Part shown: positions 179 to 12,835 of the stretch, piece after piece | Position numbering within the stretch: position 1 is the first letter of the stretch | How the letters are laid out: each line of letters opens with the position of its first letter | DNA from: Pseudomonadota bacterium | Lineage (GTDB): Bacteria > Pseudomonadota > Gammaproteobacteria > Acidiferrobacterales > Acidiferrobacteraceae | Direction: 5' to 3' | DNA length: 12,835 nucleotides | NCBI GenBank assembly: GCA_021797365.1 | Contig: JAJZZU010000041.1 | Coordinates: 1-12,835 of the forward strand | Notes under the pieces: model-generated | What the model saw: only the letters and a program-made list of their open reading frames with translations | What the model was told of the DNA's origin: nothing | The model's database searches: none | Position numbers and translations under genes: made by a program

Positions 179-3100
179 TCAGGTCCGCATTCCATGCCAT
201 GTCAAGCGGAGGGTATCGGGTACGTTGCCGCCGTAGCCCGGCCTGATACTCGCATGCAGGAGCTTATTGGGTTCCTCTACCTTATCCCATTGTGGCGTCA
301 ACCATATTCCGGATCCCGGGAGATCCTCGACAGCTACGGCTCCTTGGGCCTGGGTGGCAGACCCTTTTTTCTTGTCGGTAAGAAAGAATTGACTCGTGCC
401 GAGATCAATAGTGATGCGAAACTGTGGGTCCTTGTCTCGCAAAGGGTACCCAGCGGGCCCCTCAGCGAACCCCCGGATCATGAAGTGTGTCTCGTACCCG
501 GGTTTACGGCCAATGATGGCGATGGCTTTTTGGACCTGTATCGACACGGCGTTTTCATCATACTCCGCAAAACGTGTCTTCCGGGTTCCGTCGCCAAAAA
601 TCAGTCCGGCATCCAGGACCCCATCCGGTAGGCGGCCCTCGGTTGTCCGCATCAGGTCGGTCAGGTCATGTGAAGGATGCGTGCTGTTACCATCCAAGTC
701 ATCCGTCTCGAGACCGGGCTGCACGAAAACCTTGCCATGCTTCCCTTCCAGATCGTGCCAATTCCGGGACAGCAGCACAACGTTGATCTGCCCATCACTT
801 AAGGGAAGCCGACGGTGACGGTTGACGCGCCCCGCGGTCTGGATGATCGAGTGCATGCTCGACGGCTCGATGACAGCCCAATCGAAATCATGGTCACGCC
901 CCACTTCTTCAACCGGCGTGGCCACCACAATCAGGCGAACATCGCCAGACGTATCCCGGATCTCGGGGCATGCCTCACATAAGACCTCAACCCAACGGTC
1001 ATCGCCGCGCGATAATATTCCGTCGAGACGCTTTTCCTTCCAGGCCCGACGCTGCAGGACATCTCGGGCATGGTAGGCCGTGACCAGAAAACGCCCATCA
1101 GCGCGCAAGGCTTCCGCGACCTCCATACAACGATCAACGTTGGCCAAGCGCACGAGCCCAATGGATAGCCGACACGAGAGGCCCGGCGGTATGGCGGCCT
1201 GCATTTCGTGCAATTGCGCGGCCTGTTCGGCGATGGTGGGCGCAAAGGTTTCCAGGGAGTCGACCGGGGCAATCATGTAGCGTTTGGTGACGGGCTCTGT
1301 GGTCAGACGATCGGCCAGTGTGTGTAATGTTTTCCGATAAAAGTGATCCGCCTCTTCTGGATCTGGTGACGGTAAGGGATGGGGTGCGAACTTGTCGCTG
1401 ACCAGGGTCAGGTGCCAGGGGCGCGTACCGAAAAGCGCGTCCTGGACGAGCCGTCCTTGGGCATAGGCCAGACAAAGTCCCTTGGCCAGTCCCGGACTCA
1501 AGGTGGCACTCGAGACGATCACATTGCGCCCGAACGACGCCGCGATCTGCACGACGCGCATGACCGCCACCGTGGCCCGCACGTCGTAGGAGTCGACCTC
1601 ATCAAGTATGAGATCACTATGGGCGACGCGGATCAGGGCCTTGGCGTGGCGATGCTGTTGTCCCGGTTCGCCAGCGGCGACGATCCAGTCCATCGTGGAG
1701 ACCAATACGGGACTGGCGATCAACTTGGCCAATTTTTGTGCGGACGGATCGTTCTCGGATCGGCCTTTCGCAATAGCGGTAAGCCAGGAAGGCGGTTCAA
1801 GACTATGTTCACGGTTCGGTTCATAGGTGTCATCTGTGGGCACATCCTCCTCGTCTTCGTTGGCGTCTTCCCGATCGTCCAGGCCGTGTTCCCCCATCAA
1901 GACGGCGAAATCACGAGCAAATGTGCTGCTAGGCACCCCCAGCCGCGCAAGGTCTTTTTGGAACGCCGCGAAAGTCTGGGTGGTCAGGCTGCGCAAATTG
2001 AAGGCGACGGCCAGCCGCGCGGCGTCCGGACGCACAGCGAAGGCCATTTTGAGGTTGGCCAAGGTCTTACCGGCCCCTGTCGAGGCCACATTGAAGACCA
2101 GTTGGCCTCCCGGCTGGGCGCGCACATGGTCAACGGCCTGGTCCTGCCAAACAAAACGCGAGCCCGGGTCATCGGCCCGTGCCGCCAGAACCGTGCGCAC
2201 TAGGTCCCGATCCACGACGGGCAGGTCCTCGCCCGTAAACATGCGGATATTGTCGGCCGCGCGGTCGCCGACCTCCTGCAGGTGCCAGGACAATGGTTGG
2301 TCCATGAATCGGACGTGTTTTGGCGTGGACCCCCTTTTTCTGCGGATTGATGGCACGGACAGGGCGTCCTGCGAACAATTTTTGGTATTCGCAAAGAGAA
2401 TCCCCGCCTCTCGCGACCTGTCTTTGGTTTCAGGAAAGGTTTCACTGGAAACCTTCTGGTCGGCAAAGATCAGCGCGGCGCGCGCCAGGAGCATAACGCC
2501 CTCCCAATACGGGGCCGATCGCTCGAGACCCTGGATACGCTGGGCAGTCTTATTGATTACCTGAAAGAGCGCGGCCCACCGTTTTGCGTCCTGCGACGCA
2601 CCCGGAACGGCAAAGGCATCTGGCCGTTTTAGGGTCAGGTTGCCTTCGATTTCGAGCGGATTGCGTGTCCGGATATGCAACTCCCCATTCAGTCCGTCTT
2701 CCTGCGTGAGAATCCCGCCCATGCCCCCATGGTGCGTTCCCACGGACCACAGAAGGGCGTCCTGAGGAGTTTTCAGGTGACACCCCATGGGAAGGAAATT
2801 TGCATTAGACGGGCTATCAGGGACGCTGTCGCCCGCACGGTGCTTGGGGAACATCGCGTTCCAGGCGGCGGTAAGGGTCTGCGCGTCGATAGGGGTGTCA
2901 TGCCCTGGACCCATAAGATGCTTCATGAGCCACGCCGAGAGCCACTCATGTCGGATGGCGTCACTCTGGGAGGCTGGGTCCTGGATGCCCTTACAACTGG
3001 CTTCCAGCTTGTCTTGAAAACGGCGACTGGCCTTCCCGAAGTCGTGGACATAGCCCGCCAGACGTGCGATCAGGGCCGCATGCCGGAAGGGCATAGGAAA

Positions 3101-3394
3101 CCCCTTGGGGCGTTCTTGCGTGGCGACTGCGAAACGATCCTGGGCGTCGTAATGATTCCGATTGCCGACGATCCAGATCAACCGCAGCCCAAACACCGCG
3201 TCATTGCGATAGCAGGCAACGGACGTATTACGGCTCGCCTGGCGGCGCAGGGCCTTGTAGACCTCATCCAATGCGTCGCGCGTAATGAGTGTGCCCCAGG
3301 CGCGATCGCCGATGCGCGGGGCGTAGCGGTCGAGTAGGGTCCGCGTGCGCGCCAGGGCTGCCTGCTCACAGTTGGCGATGAAAATGACGTGCAT
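179..3394 (-). CDS. cas2-3: Cas2-Cas3 fusion, type I-F helicase-nuclease
   Basis: This 1071-residue protein is close to the usual I-F Cas2-3 length of about 1,075. Residues 1-95 form the Cas2-like domain (MHVIFIANCE... to RLIWIVGN), used with Cas1 in spacer integration. An HD nuclease domain follows, with the H117-D118 signature (YVHDFGKA), H149, H220-H221 (GTHHGG) and D311. The superfamily 2 helicase has Walker A ASTGAGKT (436-443), Walker B DEVD (597-600), SAT (628-630), motif V around 823-842 and motif VI QTAGRVNRHR (851-860). It degrades DNA bound by the crRNA complex, unwinding with ATP. The ATG at 3394 is chosen because the protein then begins exactly at the Cas2 first strand. A further in-frame ATG at 3433 would add 13 residues inside the upstream gene. 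The start lies 2 bases after the WYL stop, so the two are cotranscribed. All motifs are intact. Confidence 0.96.
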   Translation of the reverse strand: MHVIFIANCEQAALARTRTLLDRYAPRIGDRAWGTLITRDALDEVYKALRRQASRNTSVACYRNDAVFGLRLIWIVGNRNHYDAQDRFAVATQERPKGFPMPFRHAALIARLAGYVHDFGKASRRFQDKLEASCKGIQDPASQSDAIRHEWLSAWLMKHLMGPGHDTPIDAQTLTAAWNAMFPKHRAGDSVPDSPSNANFLPMGCHLKTPQDALLWSVGTHHGGMGGILTQEDGLNGELHIRTRNPLEIEGNLTLKRPDAFAVPGASQDAKRWAALFQVINKTAQRIQGLERSAPYWEGVMLLARAALIFADQKVSSETFPETKDRSREAGILFANTKNCSQDALSVPSIRRKRGSTPKHVRFMDQPLSWHLQEVGDRAADNIRMFTGEDLPVVDRDLVRTVLAARADDPGSRFVWQDQAVDHVRAQPGGQLVFNVASTGAGKTLANLKMAFAVRPDAARLAVAFNLRSLTTQTFAAFQKDLARLGVPSSTFARDFAVLMGEHGLDDREDANEDEEDVPTDDTYEPNREHSLEPPSWLTAIAKGRSENDPSAQKLAKLIASPVLVSTMDWIVAAGEPGQQHRHAKALIRVAHSDLILDEVDSYDVRATVAVMRVVQIAASFGRNVIVSSATLSPGLAKGLCLAYAQGRLVQDALFGTRPWHLTLVSDKFAPHPLPSPDPEEADHFYRKTLHTLADRLTTEPVTKRYMIAPVDSLETFAPTIAEQAAQLHEMQAAIPPGLSCRLSIGLVRLANVDRCMEVAEALRADGRFLVTAYHARDVLQRRAWKEKRLDGILSRGDDRWVEVLCEACPEIRDTSGDVRLIVVATPVEEVGRDHDFDWAVIEPSSMHSIIQTAGRVNRHRRLPLSDGQINVVLLSRNWHDLEGKHGKVFVQPGLETDDLDGNSTHPSHDLTDLMRTTEGRLPDGVLDAGLIFGDGTRKTRFAEYDENAVSIQVQKAIAIIGRKPGYETHFMIRGFAEGPAGYPLRDKDPQFRITIDLGTSQFFLTDKKKGSATQAQGAVAVEDLPGSGIWLTPQWDKVEEPNKLLHASIRPGYGGNVPDTLRLTWHGMRT

Positions 3395-3396
3395 GG

Positions 3397-4239
3397 CTAG
3401 TCCCGATCCTCGAGACGCGTGATGGGCGGCCACACGATGTCGGCAGGCACGGGTTCGTCAATAAACTCCCGCCGGAAGGCGTGTAGGGCATGGTCCGGCC
3501 AAGTCATGATGCCGTCTTGAATATCCAACTGGTTGCGCATGACGGCGGCCTGGTCGGGGGTCAAAGCCTCCGACAGGAACACCCGGAATCGGCGCGTGCG
3601 ATGCACGAGGATCCGGGGCGTGAAGTTTTTCGGGACCTCCTTGGGGTCGAGCGGTTGCGCCTCCAGGATGCGCGCCAGCACATAGGTCTTGATGGGGAAT
3701 CCCTGGGATACCGCCTCCAAGTCTTGCGCATACAAGCGCCAAAAGAGCCCTGTGTGCTCCAGGGCGCGGGGCCACAACAGGCGCCAACGGCCGTTCTCGC
3801 CGACCCGCAATCCCACATACAGGGCGCGGATCGGGCGCTCATGGAGTGCGGCATCCAGGAGCACGCGGGTCGCGAGCGGAGTCAGGGCGCGCGATGGCTT
3901 TGGGATGGGTTTCAGGAACGGGACACCATCATCAGGGAATAGGCCCGTCTCCTGGGGTGGGGCGCCCTGCGCCAGGAGATCCAAGAGCAGCGTTGCCTCC
4001 ACCGGAGCGGGCCGTGGCGCGTGGGGGTTGGGAAACACCCCGCGGTGCCGGAGACGGACCAAATGGTCGGGCCATGCCTGAACCGCTTTCTGCAAAAGGT
4101 TGGAGGCGCGGTTGGGCGAATTGACCGTTCCGAAGGCGCGATCCATGTCAGCACGCCGACATTCCCCCAAAAGCCAAGCCCGCCGTAAGACAAAAAGAGT
4201 GGAATCCATGCCGAATATTTTATAGGACAATTGTGCCAT
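3397..4239 (-). CDS. WYL-domain transcription regulator, BrxR/CapW-like
   Basis: The 280-residue protein has an N-terminal winged helix-turn-helix-like region (about 12-75, including FGTVNSPNRASNLLQKAVQAWPDHL broken over residues 36-60, then a PNPHAPRP turn). A WYL domain follows at about 131-195, with basic and aromatic positions in RPIRALYVG, RWRLLWPRAL, FWRLYAQDLE and IKTYVLARIL. A C-terminal segment to 280 may be the WCX dimerisation part. WYL regulators of this layout (BrxR, CapW) repress defence operons through inverted-repeat operators, and other WYL proteins control CRISPR loci. Here it is the first gene of an operon with cas2-3 and diverges from the Cascade operon, so it probably controls both. 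No clear Shine-Dalgarno precedes 4239. An alternative ATG at 4209 (MDSTLFVLRR) would start past a candidate operator. The ligand is unknown. Confidence 0.85.
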   Translation of the reverse strand: MAQLSYKIFGMDSTLFVLRRAWLLGECRRADMDRAFGTVNSPNRASNLLQKAVQAWPDHLVRLRHRGVFPNPHAPRPAPVEATLLLDLLAQGAPPQETGLFPDDGVPFLKPIPKPSRALTPLATRVLLDAALHERPIRALYVGLRVGENGRWRLLWPRALEHTGLFWRLYAQDLEAVSQGFPIKTYVLARILEAQPLDPKEVPKNFTPRILVHRTRRFRVFLSEALTPDQAAVMRNQLDIQDGIMTWPDHALHAFRREFIDEPVPADIVWPPITRLEDRD

Positions 4240-4240
4240 A
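4221..4240. promoter_or_regulatory. Near-palindromic operator candidate for the WYL regulator
   Basis: The sequence TATAGGACAATTGTGCCATA is symmetrical at 16 of 20 positions around a perfect ACAATTGT core. It spans the annotated WYL start codon (ATG at 4239 on the minus strand) and lies just upstream of the alternative start at 4209. Dimeric WYL regulators of the BrxR/CapW type bind inverted repeats near their own promoters, so autoregulation is a reasonable inference. On the minus strand two -10-like strings are nearby, TATAAC (4258-4253) and TATAAA (4224-4219). Neither has a good -35. Confidence 0.45.
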
Positions 4241-4280
4241 GTCCATGGCGCTGTTATAGTAAAAAAATAAATCGTCCGGC

Positions 4281-4309
4281 TTGCAGTTATTCTTGAGCTA
4301 GGTTAGGCT
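4281..4309 (+). promoter_or_regulatory. Candidate promoter of the cas8f-cas1 operon
   Basis: TTGCAG at 4281-4286 and TAGGCT at 4304-4309 are separated by 17 bases, giving a moderate sigma70-type match. It would start transcription near 4316, about 30 bases before the cas8f ATG. An AGGA Shine-Dalgarno at 4334-4337 sits 7 bases before the ATG. The match is imperfect, and the region around it (4240-4344) is A/T-rich as expected for a divergent control region. Confidence 0.35.
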
Positions 4310-4344
4310 CTCCTCATCGTCACAAAAAGGTTCAGGACTTCCCG

Positions 4345-5862
4345 ATGGAGAAAAGCGAAATAGTGGTGCTCAAGGCCAAACATGCGGCGCTGATGACGTT
4401 ATGCGGCGCCAAATTGACTGCGGAAGATGAAAAAGCCATCTCTTGCGAGCGGGATTTTTGCCAGAGGTGTGTCAAGAAAGAGCCCCGGGTCGATTTCCTG
4501 CTCAAGATCTTTTCTTTGCAGGATGGTTTTGAAGCCTTCGACTCCGAGACGTTACCGGAGCCCAGTGAGGTCGCAGCGCAGGACTACCTGGATCGCGCCT
4601 TAGCGCTGCTCCAAAGGCAAGCCGCTTCGGTATCGCCCGACCAAGCACGCGCCTTGGCGCAGGAAGCCGTGCGGGATTTTGGGGCGCATTTTTCGGGGAA
4701 GCTCATCCATTCGTCGGCAACCGACGCTGCCTTATTGGCGCCCTTGCGTGCGACGCAACAATCTCACCTCTTTAGCCGTCGACTCCGACAAGCGGGCATC
4801 CCGCTGCCGTTAGATCAAAGCAAGCTCGATAATCGGGGTATCTATCAGCGGATCCTTAAGGTGCTGCACGACGATCCTGCGGTGGCGGCGTCCGGTCTCG
4901 AGCCCGCTATCATTGAGGCGATCCGGCAGGGGGCTGACGAAGCACTGACCCAAGCACCGCCGGTACCAGACCTGGTTGATCATCGGTTGCGCCAAGTCCT
5001 GCTTCCGGATGGCGACGGCTATCTGGCGGCAAGCCCGCTCGCTGCTGGCGGGTTGAGCGTTCTGCTCCATGACGCCGCACGAGCCTTGGAAAAGGCGGCG
5101 GCAGAAGCCGATCCGGACCAGTCAGAAAAGACGCCCAAGCGGGGGCGGGGCCGGCCCCACAAGAGCGAAGAACGGGACGCCTCATCGCCTGTATCGGGAT
5201 CCACCGCCGTGACCGGAGACGAGGGGGAGAACGACAGCGAAGCGTCAAAAACTGTCAAACGTCTATTTACGCGTCTCGGCTTACCGTTTGGCGGCGCGAT
5301 TCCGCGCAACGCGAGCATTCACCCCAAATCGTCGATCCAGGAGTCGTTCTTTTTTGCGGCACCACAACGCAACGCCGAATGGAGTGCCGCTTGGCGATTC
5401 GTCTTTCGGTCTTGGCAGCCTTATGTCACCAAAACACAAGCCAAGGATATCGCCAACCAAGTCACAAGCATCGAGAAGTCCGCCGCTCTCCAGGATTCTA
5501 CGTCGTTGACCGCCGTGAAGGTCCAGGCGTCCGGGGCCTTGGCCACTGTGGTGCGGGCCTGCCATGCGCAGGCCGTCGATTTCGCTGCGGGCCTAGCCGA
5601 GGCTATTTTCCGGACAACGGATGGGGGGGAGAGGGAGATCGATGAAGACCTGTTGCGCGAACATCGAGAACCCTCCGCCCTTGATCTGGCCATCGTGCGC
5701 CAAACCTTTAATGCAGAGTATCGCGCCGCAATGGCTGAAACCATTATCAATACCGTGGACCGCTTGGCCGTGAACCGCCAGACCGGACAAGACGCCTTTG
5801 GCGGCGTGATCGGACGGCAACGCGCGCGCCGTGCCATTGAAAAGATTCTGGAGGATGTATGA
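4345..5862 (+). CDS. cas8f: Cas8f (Csy1), large subunit of the type I-F complex, divergent and enlarged
   Basis: This 505-residue protein is longer than the roughly 430 residues usual for Csy1. It is recognised by its place before cas5f and by two segments. QVLLPDGDGYLAASPL (217-232) matches the Csy1 stretch QLYFPLPGSGYHLLAPL in spacing. FGGAIPRNAS (315-324) matches the PAM-contacting FGGTKPQNIS. Cas8f caps the crRNA 5' end with Cas5f and reads the PAM. The C-terminal part (about 370-500) is predicted helical, like the Csy1 bundle that recruits Cas2-3. Odd points are an N-terminal cysteine group (C20, C34, C39, C42), a charged low-complexity linker at about 250-305 with an AT-hook at 264-273, and isoleucine at the position of the Csy1 wedge lysine. 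I see no HNH motif. Its stop overlaps the cas5f start (ATGA), which suggests translational coupling. Confidence 0.85.
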   Translation: MEKSEIVVLKAKHAALMTLCGAKLTAEDEKAISCERDFCQRCVKKEPRVDFLLKIFSLQDGFEAFDSETLPEPSEVAAQDYLDRALALLQRQAASVSPDQARALAQEAVRDFGAHFSGKLIHSSATDAALLAPLRATQQSHLFSRRLRQAGIPLPLDQSKLDNRGIYQRILKVLHDDPAVAASGLEPAIIEAIRQGADEALTQAPPVPDLVDHRLRQVLLPDGDGYLAASPLAAGGLSVLLHDAARALEKAAAEADPDQSEKTPKRGRGRPHKSEERDASSPVSGSTAVTGDEGENDSEASKTVKRLFTRLGLPFGGAIPRNASIHPKSSIQESFFFAAPQRNAEWSAAWRFVFRSWQPYVTKTQAKDIANQVTSIEKSAALQDSTSLTAVKVQASGALATVVRACHAQAVDFAAGLAEAIFRTTDGGEREIDEDLLREHREPSALDLAIVRQTFNAEYRAAMAETIINTVDRLAVNRQTGQDAFGGVIGRQRARRAIEKILEDV

Positions 5863-6674
5863 GTTATCTCGTCATCGACCTAACAGCACATAAGACCAAT
5901 ATGCTGCATACCTTAGGGATCGTATCGCCTGCCCCCGTGCTGCCGACGATTCTGGCCATGCATGCGCTGGACAAAAAGCTCGGGGGACGTCTTGATGTTC
6001 GCGGGGTGGGATTGATTCATCGGCATAGCGCCCCCTGGATCGAGCACCTGGATGACAAGGGTTATTTGAAGCCAGCGTTGGTGCAACGCCGCGGGACCTA
6101 CCTGTTCGACAGCGAAGAAAACCTCTACGGGATCCCCATGCAACCTATGGCGCTGGCCGATATCGAGTGGACGTTGGTACTCCACTGCGAAAACGACGTT
6201 TCCGATGTCAGTGCGGTGATCGGGATGTTGCACACCATGCGTTTAGCTGGTGGGCGCATTCAGGGGATCAAGGCACGGACCTTTGACCAATGGGATAAAG
6301 CAGTTTCAGCGCTTCGTACGGGACGCTGGATTGACGACGTCACTCCTATGCTCCAGTCCGGACCCAATCCCATTCAGGCGCTTCTCTCGGCAACACGCCC
6401 AGGCGCGCGCAATACCGAAGGGTGGGTCGTACCCGCCAATCTCGGTTACGCGCTTCTGGAGGATCCCATCGCTCGCCAGGGGGCCCGTGATGGCCGTCCC
6501 CACGCATTCGTGGAGGATATGGTGGGGTTGGTGCGTTACACGTCCCTCTTTCAGGCGCGCACCAAAGGACTCAAGCCCGCCAACCTCTGGCGTTATGGAT
6601 GGGATGGCGATCAGTTTCTGGTCACAAACCGACAAGATGTGTCGTTGACCCCCGGGCGTGCGGCGACCGTATAA
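5859..6674 (+). CDS. cas5f: Cas5f (Csy2), short form
   Basis: Cas5f pairs with Cas8f to hold the 5' handle of the crRNA in the surveillance complex. The protein has 271 residues against about 320-330 in well-studied Csy2 proteins. Conserved parts are MRLAGGRI (127-134, Csy2 MRLAGGSI), GWVVPANLGYALL (188-200, Csy2 GWLVPIPAGYNAL), and a C-terminal block HAFVEDMVGLVRY followed by LWRYGWDGDQFLV (243-255). Most of the missing length lies between residues 155 and 188, where other Csy2 proteins carry an extra helical insertion. The start overlaps the cas8f stop by 4 bases and has GGAGG at 5850-5854. Because Cas8f is longer than usual, contacts may have moved between the two subunits. Confidence 0.9.
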   Translation: MSYLVIDLTAHKTNMLHTLGIVSPAPVLPTILAMHALDKKLGGRLDVRGVGLIHRHSAPWIEHLDDKGYLKPALVQRRGTYLFDSEENLYGIPMQPMALADIEWTLVLHCENDVSDVSAVIGMLHTMRLAGGRIQGIKARTFDQWDKAVSALRTGRWIDDVTPMLQSGPNPIQALLSATRPGARNTEGWVVPANLGYALLEDPIARQGARDGRPHAFVEDMVGLVRYTSLFQARTKGLKPANLWRYGWDGDQFLVTNRQDVSLTPGRAATV

Positions 6675-6716
6675 CCCAAGCAAGTATATTTAACCACAAC
6701 AGTAAGGAGCATCACT
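6675..6716 (+). promoter_or_regulatory. Intergenic spacer with a strong ribosome binding site for cas7f
   Basis: This 42-base gap is the longest junction in the operon. It ends in TAAGGAG 7 bases before the cas7f ATG, close to the ideal Shine-Dalgarno, whereas the other junctions overlap or have weaker sites. That fits the higher dosage needed for Cas7f, which is present in about six copies per complex. I see no hairpin in it. Confidence 0.7.
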
Positions 6717-7787
6717 ATGAGTATCAAAATTCCTTCCGTCCTCTCCGTTCAGCGGGGCACCATCGTGACCGACGGCATCATGTCGAGTCTCGTCATGAAG
6801 GACAGCAAAACCGAGACGCGTCCGGTTCGTGTAGTGCGCCACGGTATTCGCGGAGTCCTACCCAAAAAGGAGAAGGATGGCGTGTCCAATCCCCAACGCA
6901 CCGAGAGCGCCAAAACCGTGTCTGACGCGATCGGTCTTGCGGTTTCTTTCGATTTCCGGACGATCTCTGCGCGCAAAAACTTGATTTTCGCGTGCTCGGA
7001 AGAGCCCACCCGCCAAGCCATCAATGCCTTTATTGATCGTTTTTTCAAGGATAATGTCCAGGAGTTTGAGGAGGTGTGCCGTCGCTACGCGCGTAATATC
7101 CTGAACGGCCGGTGGCTTTGGCGCAACCGAATTCTGGGGGACGTGACCGTAAGTGCGACGATCCCGGGCAAGGATGAGCCGTACCGATCGGACGGGTCGC
7201 GCACAAAATTTACAGGCCACACCAAAGATGGTTACACCGACGAAGAGATAGCCTTGGCCAAAGAGGTAATCGCCGCCGGTTTGCTGGGCGTATCAGGGTC
7301 ACCGTCGGTTCATGTGGAAGGCCGGGTGATGTTCGGCTTCACGGGTCAAGTTGAGGTGTTCCCCTCCCAGAACATGGTCACATCGAAGCCGAAGGGGTTT
7401 GCCCGCTCCCTCTATAAGGTGAACGTCATTCCCCGGAAGACCCTGATGGACATCATGGGCAGCGCCAAGAACGATGGCGAAGAGGCGGGGGAATTCGCGG
7501 CCGACATGATCGATATGGGGTGGGCGGCCTTGCGTGACCAGAAGATTGGCAATGCCATCCGCACCATCGACACTTGGTATCCGGGTTCTGACGGGACCCC
7601 GATTCCCGTGGAACCCAACGGGGCCAGCCTGGAACATAATAAGTTGCATCGTGAGGCCAAGGGAACCGGGTGGAGAGATCTCCTAACCAAAGTCGACGAG
7701 ATTAAACCGTCGGAGACCTTTAATCCGGATGCGGCGTTCCTGATCGCTCTGCTCGTGCGCGGCGGTGTGTTTTCGGAAAAACAGTGA
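6717..7787 (+). CDS. cas7f: Cas7f (Csy3), backbone subunit of the type I-F complex
   Basis: This 356-residue protein is near the usual Csy3 length of about 340. Cas7f polymerises along the crRNA spacer, usually six copies for 32 bases, each covering 6 bases. Diagnostic blocks include a YARNILNGRWLWRNR stretch (124-138), VFPSQ (214-218), QKIGNAIRTIDTWYP (275-289), PIPVEP (295-300) and the C-terminal LVRGGVF (346-352), all matching Csy3 in order. The start follows a strong TAAGGAG site. The cas6f start lies 7 bases after its stop. No truncation or frameshift is visible. Confidence 0.95.
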   Translation: MSIKIPSVLSVQRGTIVTDGIMSSLVMKDSKTETRPVRVVRHGIRGVLPKKEKDGVSNPQRTESAKTVSDAIGLAVSFDFRTISARKNLIFACSEEPTRQAINAFIDRFFKDNVQEFEEVCRRYARNILNGRWLWRNRILGDVTVSATIPGKDEPYRSDGSRTKFTGHTKDGYTDEEIALAKEVIAAGLLGVSGSPSVHVEGRVMFGFTGQVEVFPSQNMVTSKPKGFARSLYKVNVIPRKTLMDIMGSAKNDGEEAGEFAADMIDMGWAALRDQKIGNAIRTIDTWYPGSDGTPIPVEPNGASLEHNKLHREAKGTGWRDLLTKVDEIKPSETFNPDAAFLIALLVRGGVFSEKQ

Positions 7788-7794
7788 GGACACG

Positions 7795-8379
7795 ATGGCC
7801 TACATCACTTATTTTGATCTAACGCTAAGTCCAGGCCAAGCGGGCCCCGATGAGGCGCCCGCATGGGACCGCCTTGGGCGGGTGTGGCGTGTTACCCATG
7901 GGGCGAGCCGAAAGGTTGGCATACCATTCGCCGTAGCCTTTCCTGGTTGGATGCGGGAGGGCTTCGGCCTGGGCCCAACGCTGCGGGTATTCGTGCAAGA
8001 TGCCGGATCTGCCGAACGTCTGTATGACACCATCGAGCGCGCGCCGGGGATCGGTGACCTTGTTACCGGGTCACGGATTCGGACCGTTCAGGGTACGCCT
8101 CAGTCCTTTGAGGCGTACTTGATGCACCGCATCCCCTCAGGGGTTTCCAAGACGCGCAAAACCATCCCGGCGAATGTTCAGCAGGCCCTGCGCGAAAGTG
8201 CACGGCTTCGTCGGCTGACCCAGCAGCAAGGGCTGCCGTTCGTGCGAATGCGATCGTCCACGGGGCATGGCTTTCGCTTGGTGATCGAGCGGATCGCCGC
8301 TGCGGCGGATATCGGAGGTACACCGAACGGCTACGGTCTGTCGCGCACGACCCAGCTTGTGGCGTTGCCGGTTGTGTAG
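7795..8379 (+). CDS. cas6f: Cas6f (Csy4), crRNA-processing endoribonuclease
   Basis: Cas6f cuts the array transcript at the 3' side of each repeat hairpin and stays bound to it. The 194-residue protein is close to Csy4 (187). The C-terminal part LPFVRMRSSTGHGFRLVI (147-164) and YGLS (180-183) match Csy4 LPFVTLRSQSTGQHFRLFI and YGLS, keeping the active-site serine region and tyrosine. The ATG at 7795 is chosen because MAYITYFDLTL is the expected first strand and GAGGA lies just upstream. A further in-frame ATG at 7765 would overlap cas7f. Two differences stand out. Where Csy4 has the general-base H29 in GKLH, this protein has GRVW (W31), with H35 one helical turn later. The base-reading R102-V-Q104 becomes R112-I-P114. 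Confidence 0.92.
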   Translation: MAYITYFDLTLSPGQAGPDEAPAWDRLGRVWRVTHGASRKVGIPFAVAFPGWMREGFGLGPTLRVFVQDAGSAERLYDTIERAPGIGDLVTGSRIRTVQGTPQSFEAYLMHRIPSGVSKTRKTIPANVQQALRESARLRRLTQQQGLPFVRMRSSTGHGFRLVIERIAAAADIGGTPNGYGLSRTTQLVALPVV

Positions 8380-8388
8380 GCAGGGCCA

Positions 8389-9354
8389 ATGAAGACGATT
8401 CGCCGCCCGCAGGCGGTCATGATCTCCAAGAGGGCGAACGTGTTTTATTTAGAGCACGTTCGCGTGATGCAGAAGGATGAGCGCGTGGTGTATCTCACGG
8501 AGAGCCAAGATGGGATCGACCAGTTTGTGTCGATCCCGGACAAAAACACAGCCTTCATTCTCCTGGGTAAAGGAACATCGATTACAGATGCCGCTGTACG
8601 CAAGCTCTCCGAGTCCAATGTCATCGTGGGGTTCTGTGGGTCGGGCGGCTCGCCGTTGTTTGCCGAAATGGATGTCACGTTTCTGTTGCCGCAGGACGAA
8701 TACCGCCCGCCTGCGCATGCGCAACGCTGGTTTGCCCTATGGATGGCGGAGCCCAGTCGCGTGGCAATGGGGCGCGCCTTCCTGCAGCATCGCGCCGCGT
8801 GGGATAAGAATATGTTTGCCAAACTGGATATGCCGGTTCCAGGCGACGTCTTCGAAGGCTTTGCTGCTGGCCTCGACAGCTGTGCGACGACATCGGACCT
8901 GCTTTCCGCCGAGGCGCATTTCGCCAAAGAGGTCTACCGGCATTTGGCTCACGCGTTCGCCATTCAGGAATTCAGGAGGGAGCCCGGCGCCAAGAAGAAA
9001 GAGACACCGCTCCAGCGGGTCAATAGTTTCCTGGACCACGGCAACTATCTCGCGTACGGGTACGCCGCGGTCGCGCTTCATGGTATGGGCATACCGTATT
9101 TTCTGCCCGTCTTGCATGGGAAGACTCGGCGCGGTGCCTTGGTTTTCGATGTCGCGGATCTTTTCAAGGACTGGCTTATCATGCCAGCGGCTTTTCGGTG
9201 CGGGGGGCAAAACGCGAAGGATGGTGTGTTTCGGGCACAGATCATTGAATTGGCCATGCAGTATGACGTGCTGGATCATGTCATGACCTTCGTTTCAGAG
9301 CTTCCTGAGAAAATCATGAACAATCCAGGGGTTATCGGCGCCATGCCAAATTGA
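8389..9354 (+). CDS. cas1: Cas1, type I-F spacer-integrase
   Basis: This 321-residue protein matches I-F Cas1 in length and in its blocks. The N-terminal domain carries VFYLEHVRV (18-26), IPDKNTAFILLG (49-60) and FCGSGGSPLF (82-91). The catalytic domain has E175 in SAEAHFAKEVY, H243 in PVLHGKTRRG and D254/D257 in LVFDVADLFKD, with DHGNYLAYGYA (216-226) before them. With the Cas2 domain of Cas2-3, Cas1 captures DNA pieces and inserts them at the leader end of the array. It lies 9 bases after cas6f, at the end of the effector operon and directly beside the array. In canonical I-F loci cas1 precedes cas2-3. All metal-binding residues appear intact. Confidence 0.95.
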   Translation: MKTIRRPQAVMISKRANVFYLEHVRVMQKDERVVYLTESQDGIDQFVSIPDKNTAFILLGKGTSITDAAVRKLSESNVIVGFCGSGGSPLFAEMDVTFLLPQDEYRPPAHAQRWFALWMAEPSRVAMGRAFLQHRAAWDKNMFAKLDMPVPGDVFEGFAAGLDSCATTSDLLSAEAHFAKEVYRHLAHAFAIQEFRREPGAKKKETPLQRVNSFLDHGNYLAYGYAAVALHGMGIPYFLPVLHGKTRRGALVFDVADLFKDWLIMPAAFRCGGQNAKDGVFRAQIIELAMQYDVLDHVMTFVSELPEKIMNNPGVIGAMPN

Positions 9355-9377
9355 TCATTTATTGGGCAATGTTGGGT

Positions 9378-9390
9378 TAGCGCCTTGATT
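9378..9390 (-). promoter_or_regulatory. IHF-binding-site candidate in the leader
   Basis: TAGCGCCTTGATT on the plus strand matches the reverse complement of the IHF consensus WATCAANNNNTTR with one mismatch (YAANNNNTTGATW). It lies about 30 bases upstream of the first repeat. IHF bending of the leader is required for spacer integration in studied I-F systems. A single 13-base near-match is weak evidence. Confidence 0.35.
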
Positions 9391-9402
9391 CCCCGTTCTT
9401 TT

Positions 9403-9417
9403 ACAATCCGGAATTGT
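9403..9417. repeat. Leader-proximal inverted repeat
   Basis: ACAAT (9403-9407) and ATTGT (9413-9417) are perfect inverted arms around CCGGA, ending two bases before the first repeat. The left arm overlaps the TACAAT string. It might be a leader-anchoring or protein-binding site for adaptation, or an operator on the array promoter. Confidence 0.4.
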
Positions 9418-9419
9418 GG

Positions 9420-12400
9420 GTTCATCGCCGCGCAGGCGATTGAGAAGTTCGTCTCACGCGGGTAGCCGGGCATGCCGAGGTTCATCGCCGCGCAGGCGAT
9501 TGAGAAGGGACCGGTCTCAGGCCACGGCAGCGGTCTCACGTTCATCGCCGCGCAGGCGATTGAGAAGATGTCGCTTATGGCAAAGAGCGAGCCGAGACCG
9601 TTCATCGCCGCGCAGGCGATTGAGAAGACGCGGTAAAAGGCAGCCACAAGAGACAGCAGGTTCATCGCCGCGCAGGCGATTGAGAAGTTGGTCGTATTCG
9701 TGTGGAGGGTGTCGAGGTTGTTCATCGCCGCGCAGGCGATTGAGAAGAGAGACGCGTCTGATCTGTGTCGTGCGATAGCGTTCATCGCCGCGCAGGCGAT
9801 TGAGAAGGGTATGCAGCATATCTCGCACGCTCACGTCTCGTTCATCGCCGCGCAGGCGATTGAGAAGATGGGAGGCGAAACCGTCCGTGGTACCTGCTGG
9901 TTCATCGCCGCGCAGGCGATTGAGAAGGCGCGCTTCAGGCATGGATAGCCTATCGGGATGTTCATCGCCGCGCAGGCGATTGAGAAGAGGGAGCCTGGAC
10001 AGAGACGACCTGCGGCGTGGTTCATCGCCGCGCAGGCGATTGAGAAGAGCTTGAACAGGTGGAGTACCGGTGCGTGCTCGTTCATCGCCGCGCAGGCGAT
10101 TGAGAAGATTCCCACGCGGTAAGGGGCAGCGACAAGAGAGTTCATCGCCGCGCAGGCGATTGAGAAGCAGATACACGACATTGAGCGCGGCCGCCTTCCG
10201 TTCATCGCCGCGCAGGCGATTGAGAAGGATGCGTGCTCGGCATGCCCGGCTACCCGCGAGTTCATCGCCGCGCAGGCGATTGAGAAGATTCGGCGAGGCT
10301 GGAGACCGGCTCTGGGTGCGTTCATCGCCGCGCAGGCGATTGAGAAGGACCAGGCGCACCATCTCTCCGGCGCCCGCCTGTTCATCGCCGCGCAGGCGAT
10401 TGAGAAGCACCTGAGCCAGCGCAATGACGGGGATATCCAGTTCATCGCCGCGCAGGCGATTGAGAAGAATTCCCCATCCGGCAACCGAATGCGCGCCATG
10501 TTCATCGCCGCGCAGGCGATTGAGAAGAAGTTGCGCATCGTAGGGATCGACGTAGTGCCGTTCATCGCCGCGCAGGCGATTGAGAAGTTGGGCGCGAGTC
10601 ATCGCGACGTACAGGACGCGTTCATCGCCGCGCAGGCGATTGAGAAGCTGTTCGGGGGTTTTGGGGCGTGGTTTGCGTCGTTCATCGCCGCGCAGGCGAT
10701 TGAGAAGGACCCCGATCCGCACCCACAAAAGCGGTCTACGTTCATCGCCGCGCAGGCGATTGAGAAGCAATGCGGCAACGCCCGCGGTTCAGCCCGGGTG
10801 TTCATCGCCGCGCAGGCGATTGAGAAGGGACTGTGGGGGCACCGGAGTACCAAAGCAGCGTTCATCGCCGCGCAGGCGATTGAGAAGGCCGCTGCGCCTG
10901 CCACTGGCTCCGTAGCCTCGTTCATCGCCGCGCAGGCGATTGAGAAGAAACGTCAGAGTGATCCCGCTCTGATTGCCGAGTTCATCGCCGCGCAGGCGAT
11001 TGAGAAGCACTTGCGCCCTGGCCCAAGGCATCGCGGTTCGTTCATCGCCGCGCAGGCGATTGAGAAGATCCGTGATCGCCTGGCGTACATGCCTGCAATG
11101 TTCATCGCCGCGCAGGCGATTGAGAAGAACGTGCCACCGCTGGACGTCTGCGGGCTACCGTTCATCGCCGCGCAGGCGATTGAGAAGTGATCGCCGACCT
11201 CGTGGCGGCGCAGGGCACCGTTCATCGCCGCGCAGGCGATTGAGAAGGTCCGTGCAAGCAGGGACCATCGCATGAAAGAGTTCATCGCCGCGCAGGCGAT
11301 TGAGAAGGCAATCAACCCGGGAGCCGGTTGTCCGGCCGCGTTCATCGCCGCGCAGGCGATTGAGAAGAAGATCGCCGAACTCGAATCCCGCATCAACTCG
11401 TTCATCGCCGCGCAGGCGATTGAGAAGGTCGCAGAGCGAGACGGAAAAGAGGTGACGCTGTTCATCGCCGCGCAGGCGATTGAGAAGACGCAGAAGCGGC
11501 TCTCCGTGATCGGATAGTAGTTCATCGCCGCGCAGGCGATTGAGAAGATGCGTCCTCCCAATACTCCGTGCGTGCGCCCGTTCATCGCCGCGCAGGCGAT
11601 TGAGAAGCGTCATCCATCCGCCGCCAGATACGCGACAGTGTTCATCGCCGCGCAGGCGATTGAGAAGCTCCGGTGGCCGGATTATCTTCGTTGGAATGCG
11701 TTCATCGCCGCGCAGGCGATTGAGAAGATAAGATGCTGTACGCGTCTGGCGCAGGCGACGTTCATCGCCGCGCAGGCGATTGAGAAGATTGCGATATTCC
11801 GCAGCACCAGGGCACATATGTTCATCGCCGCGCAGGCGATTGAGAAGTAATCTTTGGGGATTTTGAGCTTGAGCCGGATGTTCATCGCCGCGCAGGCGAT
11901 TGAGAAGCATGCGGTGGCCCATGCGGCGTTCATCGCCGCGCAGGCGATTGAGAAGCGGAGCCTTTTTACCACGATCCGGCCCAACTCGTTCATCGCCGCG
12001 CAGGCGATTGAGAAGAGTTGATGCCTCCGATCGCGCTCCAGTGTGACGTTCATCGCCGCGCAGGCGATTGAGAAGAAGCGCACTGGATATTCCCCGGCTG
12101 TAGCTCAGTTCATCGCCGCGCAGGCGATTGAGAAGAATTCCCCGTCCAAGAGCCGGATGCGCGCCATGTTCATCGCCGCGCAGGCGATTGAGAAGAGTGC
12201 GGGAGCGTCATGGCGCCCCCTTGTCGAGTTCATCGCCGCGCAGGCGATTGAGAAGGTCGCTTGATCTTATGCGGGCGTTACGTCGCCGTTCATCGCCGCG
12301 CAGGCGATTGAGAAGGCTCTCGCGAGAGAGGAGCCGCTGTGTGACATGTTCATCGCCGCGCAGGCGATTGAGAAGAGCCGCCACGGCGACGTCGTTCCAC

Positions 12401-12615
12401 GCGTTAGGTTCATCGCCGCGCAGGCGATTGAGAAGCTACTTTGGATATGCGGTGGGATCCACTACCAGTTCATCGCCGCGCAGGCGATTGAGAAGGCCCG
12501 ACCTGGCCCACGGCGTGCTCCATTGGCGTTCATCGCCGCGCAGGCGATTGAGAAGATGTGCCGGGGGCGGCTGCGGGTAAAGGGCCGGTTCATCGCCGCG
12601 CAGGCGATTGAGAAG
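9420..12615 (+). CRISPR. Type I-F CRISPR array, 54 repeats and 53 spacers
   Basis: The 28-base repeat consists of GTTCA, stem arm TCGCC, loop GCGCA, stem arm GGCGA and the 8-base handle TTGAGAAG. This is the I-F plan of a 5-pair stem with a 5-base loop and an 8-base 5' handle after Cas6f cleavage. Repeats begin every 60 bases from 9420 to 11880 (42 copies) and again from 11928 to 12588 (12 copies). All 54 look identical, including the last. Spacers are 32 bases except the one at 11908-11927, which is 20. The newest spacers should be at the left, next to the leader. The 60-base period keeps several frames open, so long repetitive reading frames here are artefacts. I found no spacer that clearly matches DNA elsewhere in the window, but this was not an exhaustive search. 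Confidence 0.99.
11908..11927 (+). repeat. Anomalous 20-base spacer
   Basis: This spacer is the only one not 32 bases long. It reads CATGCGGTGGCC followed by CATGCGGC, a 12-base unit followed by a partial second copy. Both flanking repeats are perfect. A crRNA from it would carry a guide 12 bases short, two Cas7f footprints of 6 bases each. Confidence 0.95.
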
Positions 12616-12739: not shown

Positions 12740-12835
12740 ATGGGGGCGTATTTCGGATCCAAGGCAACCTCTGGGTTGTGCCAGGCGATCATCGCCCTCA
12801 TGCCGCCCCACGACACCTATATCGAGACCCACTTA
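12740..12835 (+). CDS. D12-class DNA adenine methyltransferase, N-terminus only (runs off the window)
   Basis: The visible 32 codons read MGAYFGSKATSGLC, then QAIIALMPPHDTYIETHL. The pattern Y-x-G-[GS]-K near the start, then an I-x-x-x-M/F-P-P-H stretch and Y-[IV]-E, is the AdoMet-binding beginning of Dam-like (D12 class) N6-adenine methyltransferases, which would continue into a GGG motif just past the window edge. The variant with FGSKAT and MPPHDTYIETHL is reminiscent of stand-alone or phage-type enzymes rather than housekeeping Dam. A Shine-Dalgarno AGGGG at 12726-12730 supports the start. Whether a restriction enzyme accompanies it cannot be seen. Confidence 0.72.
   Translation, partial: MGAYFGSKATSGLCQAIIALMPPHDTYIETHL

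Follow-up and report, generated by a model that had tools for sequence, protein, structure and literature searches.

A putative branch of type I-F CRISPR-Cas, distinct in protein lineage and gene order, with a cas2-3 arm behind a WYL regulator gene

A stretch of 12,835 nucleotides (contig JAJZZU010000041.1 of assembly GCA_021797365.1, from a bacterium of the Acidiferrobacteraceae; the whole stretch is called the window below) carries a type I-F CRISPR (clustered regularly interspaced short palindromic repeats)-Cas locus whose genes are divided between two strands. The question this locus raises is whether such a division marks a local rearrangement of an ordinary system or a lineage of its own, and what the division might be for. 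The original prediction, made from this DNA, had proposed a possibly distinct I-F branch in which cas2-3 lies behind a WYL-domain regulator gene, divergent from the complex genes, and cas1 has moved next to the array. Our analysis makes it likely that the locus is a complete CRISPR immune system from a type I-F branch that stands apart in both its proteins and its gene order, with a cas2-3 arm behind a WYL regulator and a nuclease that may be separately controlled.

Gene order and phylogeny of the branch

Open reading frames (ORFs) and family matches located all I-F genes in the arrangement that had been predicted. On the reverse strand, cas2-3 (cas3f), which encodes a Cas2 domain fused to an HD nuclease and a helicase, occupies 179–3394 (TIGR02562, PF21384 and PF22590; ORF called to 3433), and the gene of the CapW/BrxR-like WYL-domain regulator is located just upstream of it at 3397–4209 (PADLOC WYL model, E 2e-4; ORF called to 4239). 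An intergenic region (4210–4344) separates this arm from the effector/cas1 operon on the forward strand, where cas8f (csy1, 4345–5862), cas5f (csy2, 5859–6674), cas7f (csy3, 6717–7787) and cas6f (csy4, 7765–8379) are followed by cas1f (8389–9354) as the last gene of the operon before the array. The short cas1–array stretch (9355–9419, forward) is, from its sequence, the presumed leader of a CRISPR array of 54 repeats and 53 spacers (9420–12,615, forward).

Gene order was tallied for 18 loci (labelled L) from 17 branch records, the branch being defined as records grouped by likeness of Cas7f to that of the window, and for 39 I-F1 loci, all laid out by tblastn with reference proteins. In eight branch loci, cas2-3 and a WYL gene diverged from cas8f-cas5f-cas7f-cas6f-cas1, and six had a like order in which no WYL gene was found. 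Another, L015, had no cas1 in the fetched stretch; L047 and L114 were fragments of one genome, with cas2-3 divergent from cas8f visible in L114. The exception was L094, where the complex genes are followed on their own strand by cas2-3 and cas1. Overall, cas2-3 was divergent in 16 of the 17 branch loci with both cas2-3 and cas8f in view, compared with none of the 37 I-F1 loci in which both cas1 and cas2-3 were found; in all 37, cas1 precedes cas2-3 and shares its strand. The remaining two I-F1 loci either started within cas2-3 at a contig end (L055) or lacked cas1 and cas2-3 in the ~7 kb upstream of cas8f (L056). The layout is not attributable to chance, since it recurs in 15 other records. 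An array was found after cas1 in 14 branch loci and none was called in L015 or L114; L011 had a further array, the larger of its two, between cas2-3 and cas8f, and L094 had array repeats between cas6f and cas2-3. The cas3 frame of Pseudomonas silesiensis in L015 (3701–6517, 938 aa) aligned to the window protein from residue 113 on and had no Cas2-domain match.

Phylogenetic trees separated the branch from I-F1 for five proteins. The 17 branch rows formed one clade in the Cas7f tree (support 100/100), apart from 38 I-F1 and two I-F3 rows; this clade is partly a product of construction, as Cas7f was used for selection; this does not apply to the gene orders or to the trees of Cas1, Cas2-3, Cas8f and Cas6f. 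In the Cas1 tree, 15 branch rows formed one clade (98/94), and four I-F2 rows were nested among I-F1. Quick trees recovered the branch with support of 100 for Cas2-3 (17 rows), 100 for Cas8f (16 rows) and 98 for Cas6f (17 rows); the tree programs warned of long branches. L002, the second contig of the metagenome-assembled genome that also contains L003, was left out of all trees, and length limits removed rows for cas1 (L070, L094), cas7f (L076), cas8f (L070, L114), cas2-3 (L051, L055) and the WYL gene (L060, L119). With five supported clades and an order that recurs, the outcome of the order search and the trees was the opposite of proteins scattered inside I-F1 and a layout confined to one genome, and the proposal of a distinct I-F branch is borne out.

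A scan of close relatives in genome_contigs found four loci with the same order as far as the contigs reach. A class-wide draw gave Cas7f matches in 33 of 369 genomes, with two separate score groups: four genomes at E ≤6.6e-43 (including the search centre, G003) and the other 29 at E ≥1.3e-15. Of 300 genomes from the order of Tepidimonas, 18 matched, five at E ≤1.5e-52, one at 1.9e-18 (L088, an I-F1 locus) and the rest more weakly. Another order gave three of 31, all at E ≤3.1e-35; in three more, the centre genome alone matched (1/4, 1/196 and 1/57), and in one further order four of 47 matched, the centre alone strongly. The matches left out were all weak (seven of the 18 in the Tepidimonas order and two of the four in the last). 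Among plasmids, 32 records had a Cas7f match, nine of which were examined; the top four (33.7–40.8% identity) were branch members, namely Allochromatium tepidum pAt1, Acinetobacter baumannii p1DB053, a plasmid of Acinetobacter sp. ANC 7974 and P. silesiensis pPL1. In draws from the class of Tepidimonas, which we take to be Gammaproteobacteria in GTDB, the branch was present in four of 369 genomes including the search centre (three of 368 without it), and a strong match to Cas3fv, indicative of I-F2, in five of 339. In those draws the branch is thus about as frequent as the named variant I-F2, yet neither Pfam nor NCBIfam has a model that picks up the window's Cas8f.

Proteins, array and target choice

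The window proteins were identified with varying ease. Cas1f matched TIGR03637 with 329.8 bits and Cas7f matched PF09615 (186 bits) and TIGR02566 (195 bits). Cas2-3 scored 566.9 bits against TIGR02562 (cut-off 565.95), and its Cas2 domain scored 81.6 bits against PF21384. Cas5f (PF09614, 30.9 bits; PADLOC Cas5f, E 4e-16) and Cas6f (PF09618, 44.5 bits) were below the cut-offs of TIGR02565 and TIGR02563, respectively. Cas5f had been described as unusually short, which was not upheld: its 271 aa lie within the 248–423 aa of 39 I-F1 ORFs as called, a range that becomes 285–423 aa without phage ICP1.

Cas8f (505 aa) had no match in Pfam or NCBIfam, no Pfam domain even at E values up to 1, and a PADLOC Cas8f match at E 0.0027. 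It was assigned from its genomic position and from a 16-member branch profile, which covered the greater part of Csy1 chains in the PDB (9irf_J, E 4e-11, the best; 5uz9_A, E 1e-5) and I-F1 Cas8f by hhalign with 97.9% probability (E 3e-13). The cas8f genes of three annotated branch plasmids appear in public annotation as "hypothetical protein". The window's Cas8f is 100% identical to P0001, which is encoded on an ENA contig. The GGTKPQN motif of 5uz9_A (K247 and N250, counted from the alignment) corresponds to GGAIPRN in the window. The equivalent of K247 was lysine in four of 16 branch proteins, compared with 26 of the 31 I-F1 proteins with a readable motif (seven further I-F1 proteins and one branch fragment were unreadable), whereas the equivalent of N250 was asparagine in 15 of 16 and threonine in L094. 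We take both residues of Pseudomonas aeruginosa Cas8f to act in reading the protospacer-adjacent motif (PAM), K247 as a wedge. Columns conserved in both the branch and other I-F proteins included H243, D254 and D257 of Cas1, H45 of Cas6f, and H130-D131, GxGKT (453–457), D611-E612 and QxxGRxxR (865–872) of Cas2-3, all presumably catalytic; L108 (ICP1) was left out of this count as a long branch.

In the window's array, the 54 repeats are 28 nt long, identical, and contain an I-F-like hairpin (ATCGCC/GGCGAT); 52 of the 53 spacers are 32 nt long. The other, of 20 nt (11,908–11,927), is flanked by perfect repeats. Spacers at 9448–9479 and 10,228–10,259 have 23 nt in common as reverse complements and so hit one target on both of its strands, a pattern expected of primed adaptation. 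A second pair (10,468–10,499 and 12,136–12,167) shares an identical register with six mismatches, which may reflect repeated sampling of a varying target. Downstream, an open frame at 12,740–12,835, beginning MGAYFGSKATSGLCQAIIALMPPHDTYIETHL, exits the window; its 32 aa gave an insignificant Pfam match only, and we presume that it resembles the start of an adenine methyltransferase. There were no Rfam matches in the window.

The array of a relative, A. baumannii p1DB053 (L011), matched 110 phage and nine plasmid records, its own included, and stretches of four of the phages and three of the plasmids were inspected. In these stretches, 13 of 40 spacers had a protospacer at ≤2 mismatches, directly preceded on the 5′ side by CC in 12 cases and by CT in one. 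The spacers acquired by this relative are 32 nt long. The PAM of type I-F is 5′-CC. For the window itself, overlapping spacers allowed two indirect inferences: spacers 4 and 12 overlap on related targets, as do spacer 19 and spacer 102 of L001 (21 nt, four mismatches), and both pairs place CC upstream. Because CC was seen at 12 of 13 protospacers and in both overlaps, the target choice of the branch looks like that of I-F1. The p1DB053 plasmid has two arrays with different repeats (L011, 5573–7941 and 13,030–13,360), and it is the spacers of the larger that match Acinetobacter phages. The array of L012 had no phage match, and its only plasmid matches were its own record and, at 65% identity, a plasmid of Acinetobacter soli. 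In viral_contigs the window's array repeat was absent and no match to its Cas1 was confirmed, so there is no sign there of a phage-borne locus. The branch is a recurrent, phylogenetically distinct I-F variant, and functional as judged by sequence signs.

The WYL gene, control of Cas2-3 and competing explanations

A WYL gene was found in eight of the 17 branch records, in all eight directly upstream of cas2-3 and on its strand; the likely cas2-3 start falls between 10 nt ahead of the WYL gene's end and 2 nt beyond it. The starts in the window, L001, L087 and L095 were chosen from the conserved N-terminus. In the window, the true cas2-3 start is probably 3394, 2 nt past the WYL stop, rather than 3433, because the TIGR02562 match begins at residue 14, a methionine whose column shows ≥93% conservation both among the 17 branch rows and among 39 others. 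The WYL gene itself probably starts at 4209, where close relatives align, rather than at 4239.

The eight branch WYL proteins formed one clade (99/96) against 15 others, including proteins encoded near I-F1 and I-F2 cas1, and again (100/100) against 14 others in a second set, from which L064 and L069 were left out. A five-member profile matched 13 of 303 genomes, and in both genomes with E <1e-39 (G003 and G175) the gene was located beside a branch cas2-3. The window protein had no Pfam or NCBIfam match. Compared with structures, the family profile matched CapW (9c5g, E 1.3e-8) and BrxR (7t8k, E 1.2e-5), its positions 11–242 aligning to CapW 18–241 and thus spanning, as judged by sequence, the N-terminal winged helix-turn-helix, the WYL domain and the C-terminal domain; a wider profile that included one I-F1-associated WYL protein gave E 1e-35. 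By profile comparison, then, the branch WYL proteins are distant homologues of the defence repressors CapW and BrxR. CapW represses its own operon and binds palindromes that overlap the −10 site (PMC9122588), and CRISPR-Cas accounts for 21 of 210 BrxR-associated defence systems (PMC9122601). WYL genes of other lineages were located near I-F1 or I-F2 cas1 in L013 (5517–6383), L060, L089 and L111, which suggests that I-F loci acquired WYL genes on more than one occasion.

This homology makes it plausible that the WYL protein controls the Cas2-3 nuclease separately. A WYL dimer would bind the shared intergenic region and repress its own arm, perhaps the complex operon as well, until a ligand that arises on infection or DNA damage releases it. 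The genes for the CRISPR RNA-guided complex (Cas8f, Cas5f, Cas7f and Cas6f) are located together with cas1 beside the array. Under such control the surveillance complex and Cas1 would be kept ready and the nuclease made on demand. Since Cas2-3 doubles as the Cas2 subunit that works with Cas1, a WYL switch would gate target destruction and spacer integration alike. That a dedicated WYL sensor-repressor thus forms one infection-dependent switch for DNA shredding and integration is a tentative proposal, to which we give somewhat less credence than to its negation. The branch lends itself to asking at what point a cell turns on a CRISPR nuclease, because structures and published binding assays exist for the regulator family.

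In the intergenic region, two sigma-70-like sites were present in 4180–4360, compared with a mean of 0.2 in shuffled sequences, and one of them, on the reverse strand at 4217–4245 (TGGACT-17-TAAAAT), would serve the WYL/cas2-3 arm. Several observations weigh against the reading developed here. The imperfect 20-bp palindrome between these hexamers (4221–4240) was not above chance (99 of 500 shuffles scored as high) and was not seen in L001, and no palindrome was common to the nine intergenic regions scanned. The conserved WYL-cas2-3 arm that the original prediction envisaged holds in part: where the gene is present, the proteins are one clade and the spacing is tight, but no WYL gene was found in nine of the 17 branch records. 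Most of the PAM evidence derives from an Acinetobacter relative that yielded no WYL gene. When the complete array of the window was compared with phages by BLAST, all hits were at E 0.3 or worse, and three exact patterns from spacers 1/14, 4/12 and 18/46 had no match in viral_contigs.

The WYL protein might instead be not a transcription factor but a partner that senses a ligand and acts directly on Cas2-3 or the complex. The uniformly tight spacing to cas2-3 and the lack of an evident operator palindrome fit this idea, as does WYL1 of type VI-D, which binds RNA and positively regulates Cas13d (PMC9122588). Since the branch profile aligns, N-terminal part included, to a DNA-binding repressor, we regard direct action as improbable. 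Least probable of the alternatives is that the locus is an ordinary I-F1 system with a local rearrangement in a few genomes and a WYL gene that is a passing defence-island neighbour. All core genes are of type I-F, the relative's PAM is CC, and the WYL genes of other lineages noted above show that proximity of WYL and CRISPR genes is not rare; yet the separate clades of five proteins, the divergent order seen in the branch and never in I-F1, and the single clade of the cas2-3-adjacent WYL proteins all speak against it.

A third alternative concerns novelty rather than biology. The 2025 classification mentions I-F3, I-F4 and a rare I-F1/I-F2 intermediate (PMC12669027), and the branch could be that intermediate and so be already recognised. 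The PADLOC Cas8f model PDLC01425 matched 14 of the 16 branch Cas8f proteins (best E 2e-264), and its curators therefore already knew a branch protein as Cas8f; in addition, the branch joined between I-F2 and the rest in an unrooted Cas2-3 tree with alphaproteobacterial rows. Against this, the branch has a Cas8f together with Csy2- and Csy3-type Cas5f and Cas7f, its Cas7f profile aligned to that of I-F1 Cas7f at 100%, and the I-F2 Cas1 proteins nest in I-F1, not with the branch. Kinship with I-F2 was also sought through Cas7fv (identified by PADLOC), which failed against the branch (0.3%) and I-F1 (0.1%) alike and is uninformative on distance; for this reason we raised our estimate for prior recognition slightly, to a level that is still unlikely, if the least unlikely of the three. 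No description of this layout was found in the titles and abstract openings of related literature, a scope outside which most subscription journals lay.

Direction of the gene-order change and comparison with known systems

The claim that cas1 had moved next to the array appears to have the direction reversed. Two plasmid I-F loci of Alphaproteobacteria (L140 and L141; Neokomagataea and Pararhizobium) have the order cas8f-cas5f-cas7f-[cas6-like]-cas1-cas2-3. Their cas8f genes, unnamed as such in the records, matched PADLOC Cas8f at E 1e-121 and 7e-150, and their cas6-like genes weakly matched type IV Cas6 (E 2e-4 and 5e-5). In Escherichia coli, the I-E order is casE(cas6)-cas1-cas2. A Cas1 tree rooted on five I-E proteins placed the alphaproteobacterial two outside, then the branch (98/99) and then I-F1 with I-F2 (96/87), the node uniting branch and I-F1+I-F2 having support of 97/93 and the root lying on very long branches; L108 (ICP1) was left out of the trees with alphaproteobacterial or I-E rows. 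Given the shared adjacency in alphaproteobacterial I-F and E. coli I-E and the position of the Cas1 root, we moderately favour a history in which the placement of cas1 behind cas6 is ancestral, cas1-cas2-3 came to lead the operon in I-F1, and cas2-3 became detached in the branch. On this view it is the familiar I-F1 arrangement, headed by cas1-cas2-3, that would be derived.

Two further plasmid loci were noted. In a plasmid of Pseudomonas sp. Leaf58 (L142, 5997–16,021), csy1-csy2-csy3-cas6f are followed, after a gap of ~2.5 kb, by cas1f and cas3 on the same strand; its Cas1 remained unplaced when added to the rooted tree (support 19/10), from which two long I-E rows were left out. Another Pseudomonas plasmid (L143, 5521–10,944) encodes a RAMP protein, Cas6f, a DNA helicase and Cas1f, a type IV-like make-up.

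Compared with known systems, the branch is closest in its parts to I-F1 (the Yersinia/Pseudomonas type), with which it shares Cas1f, the Cas2-3 fusion, Cas8f, Cas5f, Cas7f, Cas6f, 28-nt hairpin repeats, 32-nt spacers and, in one member, a CC PAM. It differs in that I-F1 carries cas1, cas2-3, cas8f, cas5f, cas7f and cas6f on one strand, whereas in the branch cas2-3 is divergent and cas1 follows cas6f, and in that its proteins fall outside the I-F1 clade. With I-F2 (the Shewanella type, with Cas5fv and Cas7fv) it has Cas1f and Cas2-3 in common. The four I-F2 loci had no Cas8f match and had ORFs named Cas7fv and Cas5fv by PADLOC after cas1 and cas2-3, whereas the window has Cas8f and a Cas5f and Cas7f that match the Csy2 and Csy3 models, with no Cas5fv or Cas7fv match listed. 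Systems of type I-F3 (reference loci L106 and L107) have a Cas8-Cas5 fusion and TniQ and lack cas1 and cas2-3; in the window, cas8f and cas5f are separate and both cas1 and cas2-3 are present. Unlike I-F4, which has an HNH domain in Cas8f and usually lacks Cas3, the window has a Cas8f without a Pfam domain match and retains cas2-3.

The alphaproteobacterial I-F loci resemble the branch in having the complex genes first, a Cas8f (PADLOC PDLC01145) and cas1 right after a Cas6-like gene known from weak matches; in one of the two (L141), a WYL gene also diverges from cas8f. They differ in having cas2-3 after cas1 on the same strand, in forming a separate clade in the Cas1, Cas7f, Cas2-3 and Cas8f trees, and in that this WYL gene belongs to another lineage. 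Finally, the arrangement of the cas2-3 arm recalls the CapW and BrxR regulators of the cyclic oligonucleotide-based antiphage signalling system (CBASS) and bacteriophage exclusion (BREX), in that a WYL regulator, homologous over most of its length, stands first in an arm of phage-defence genes. In the branch, the regulator precedes cas2-3 and is distant in sequence from CapW and BrxR, which were themselves not in the WYL tree that separated the eight branch proteins at 99/96.

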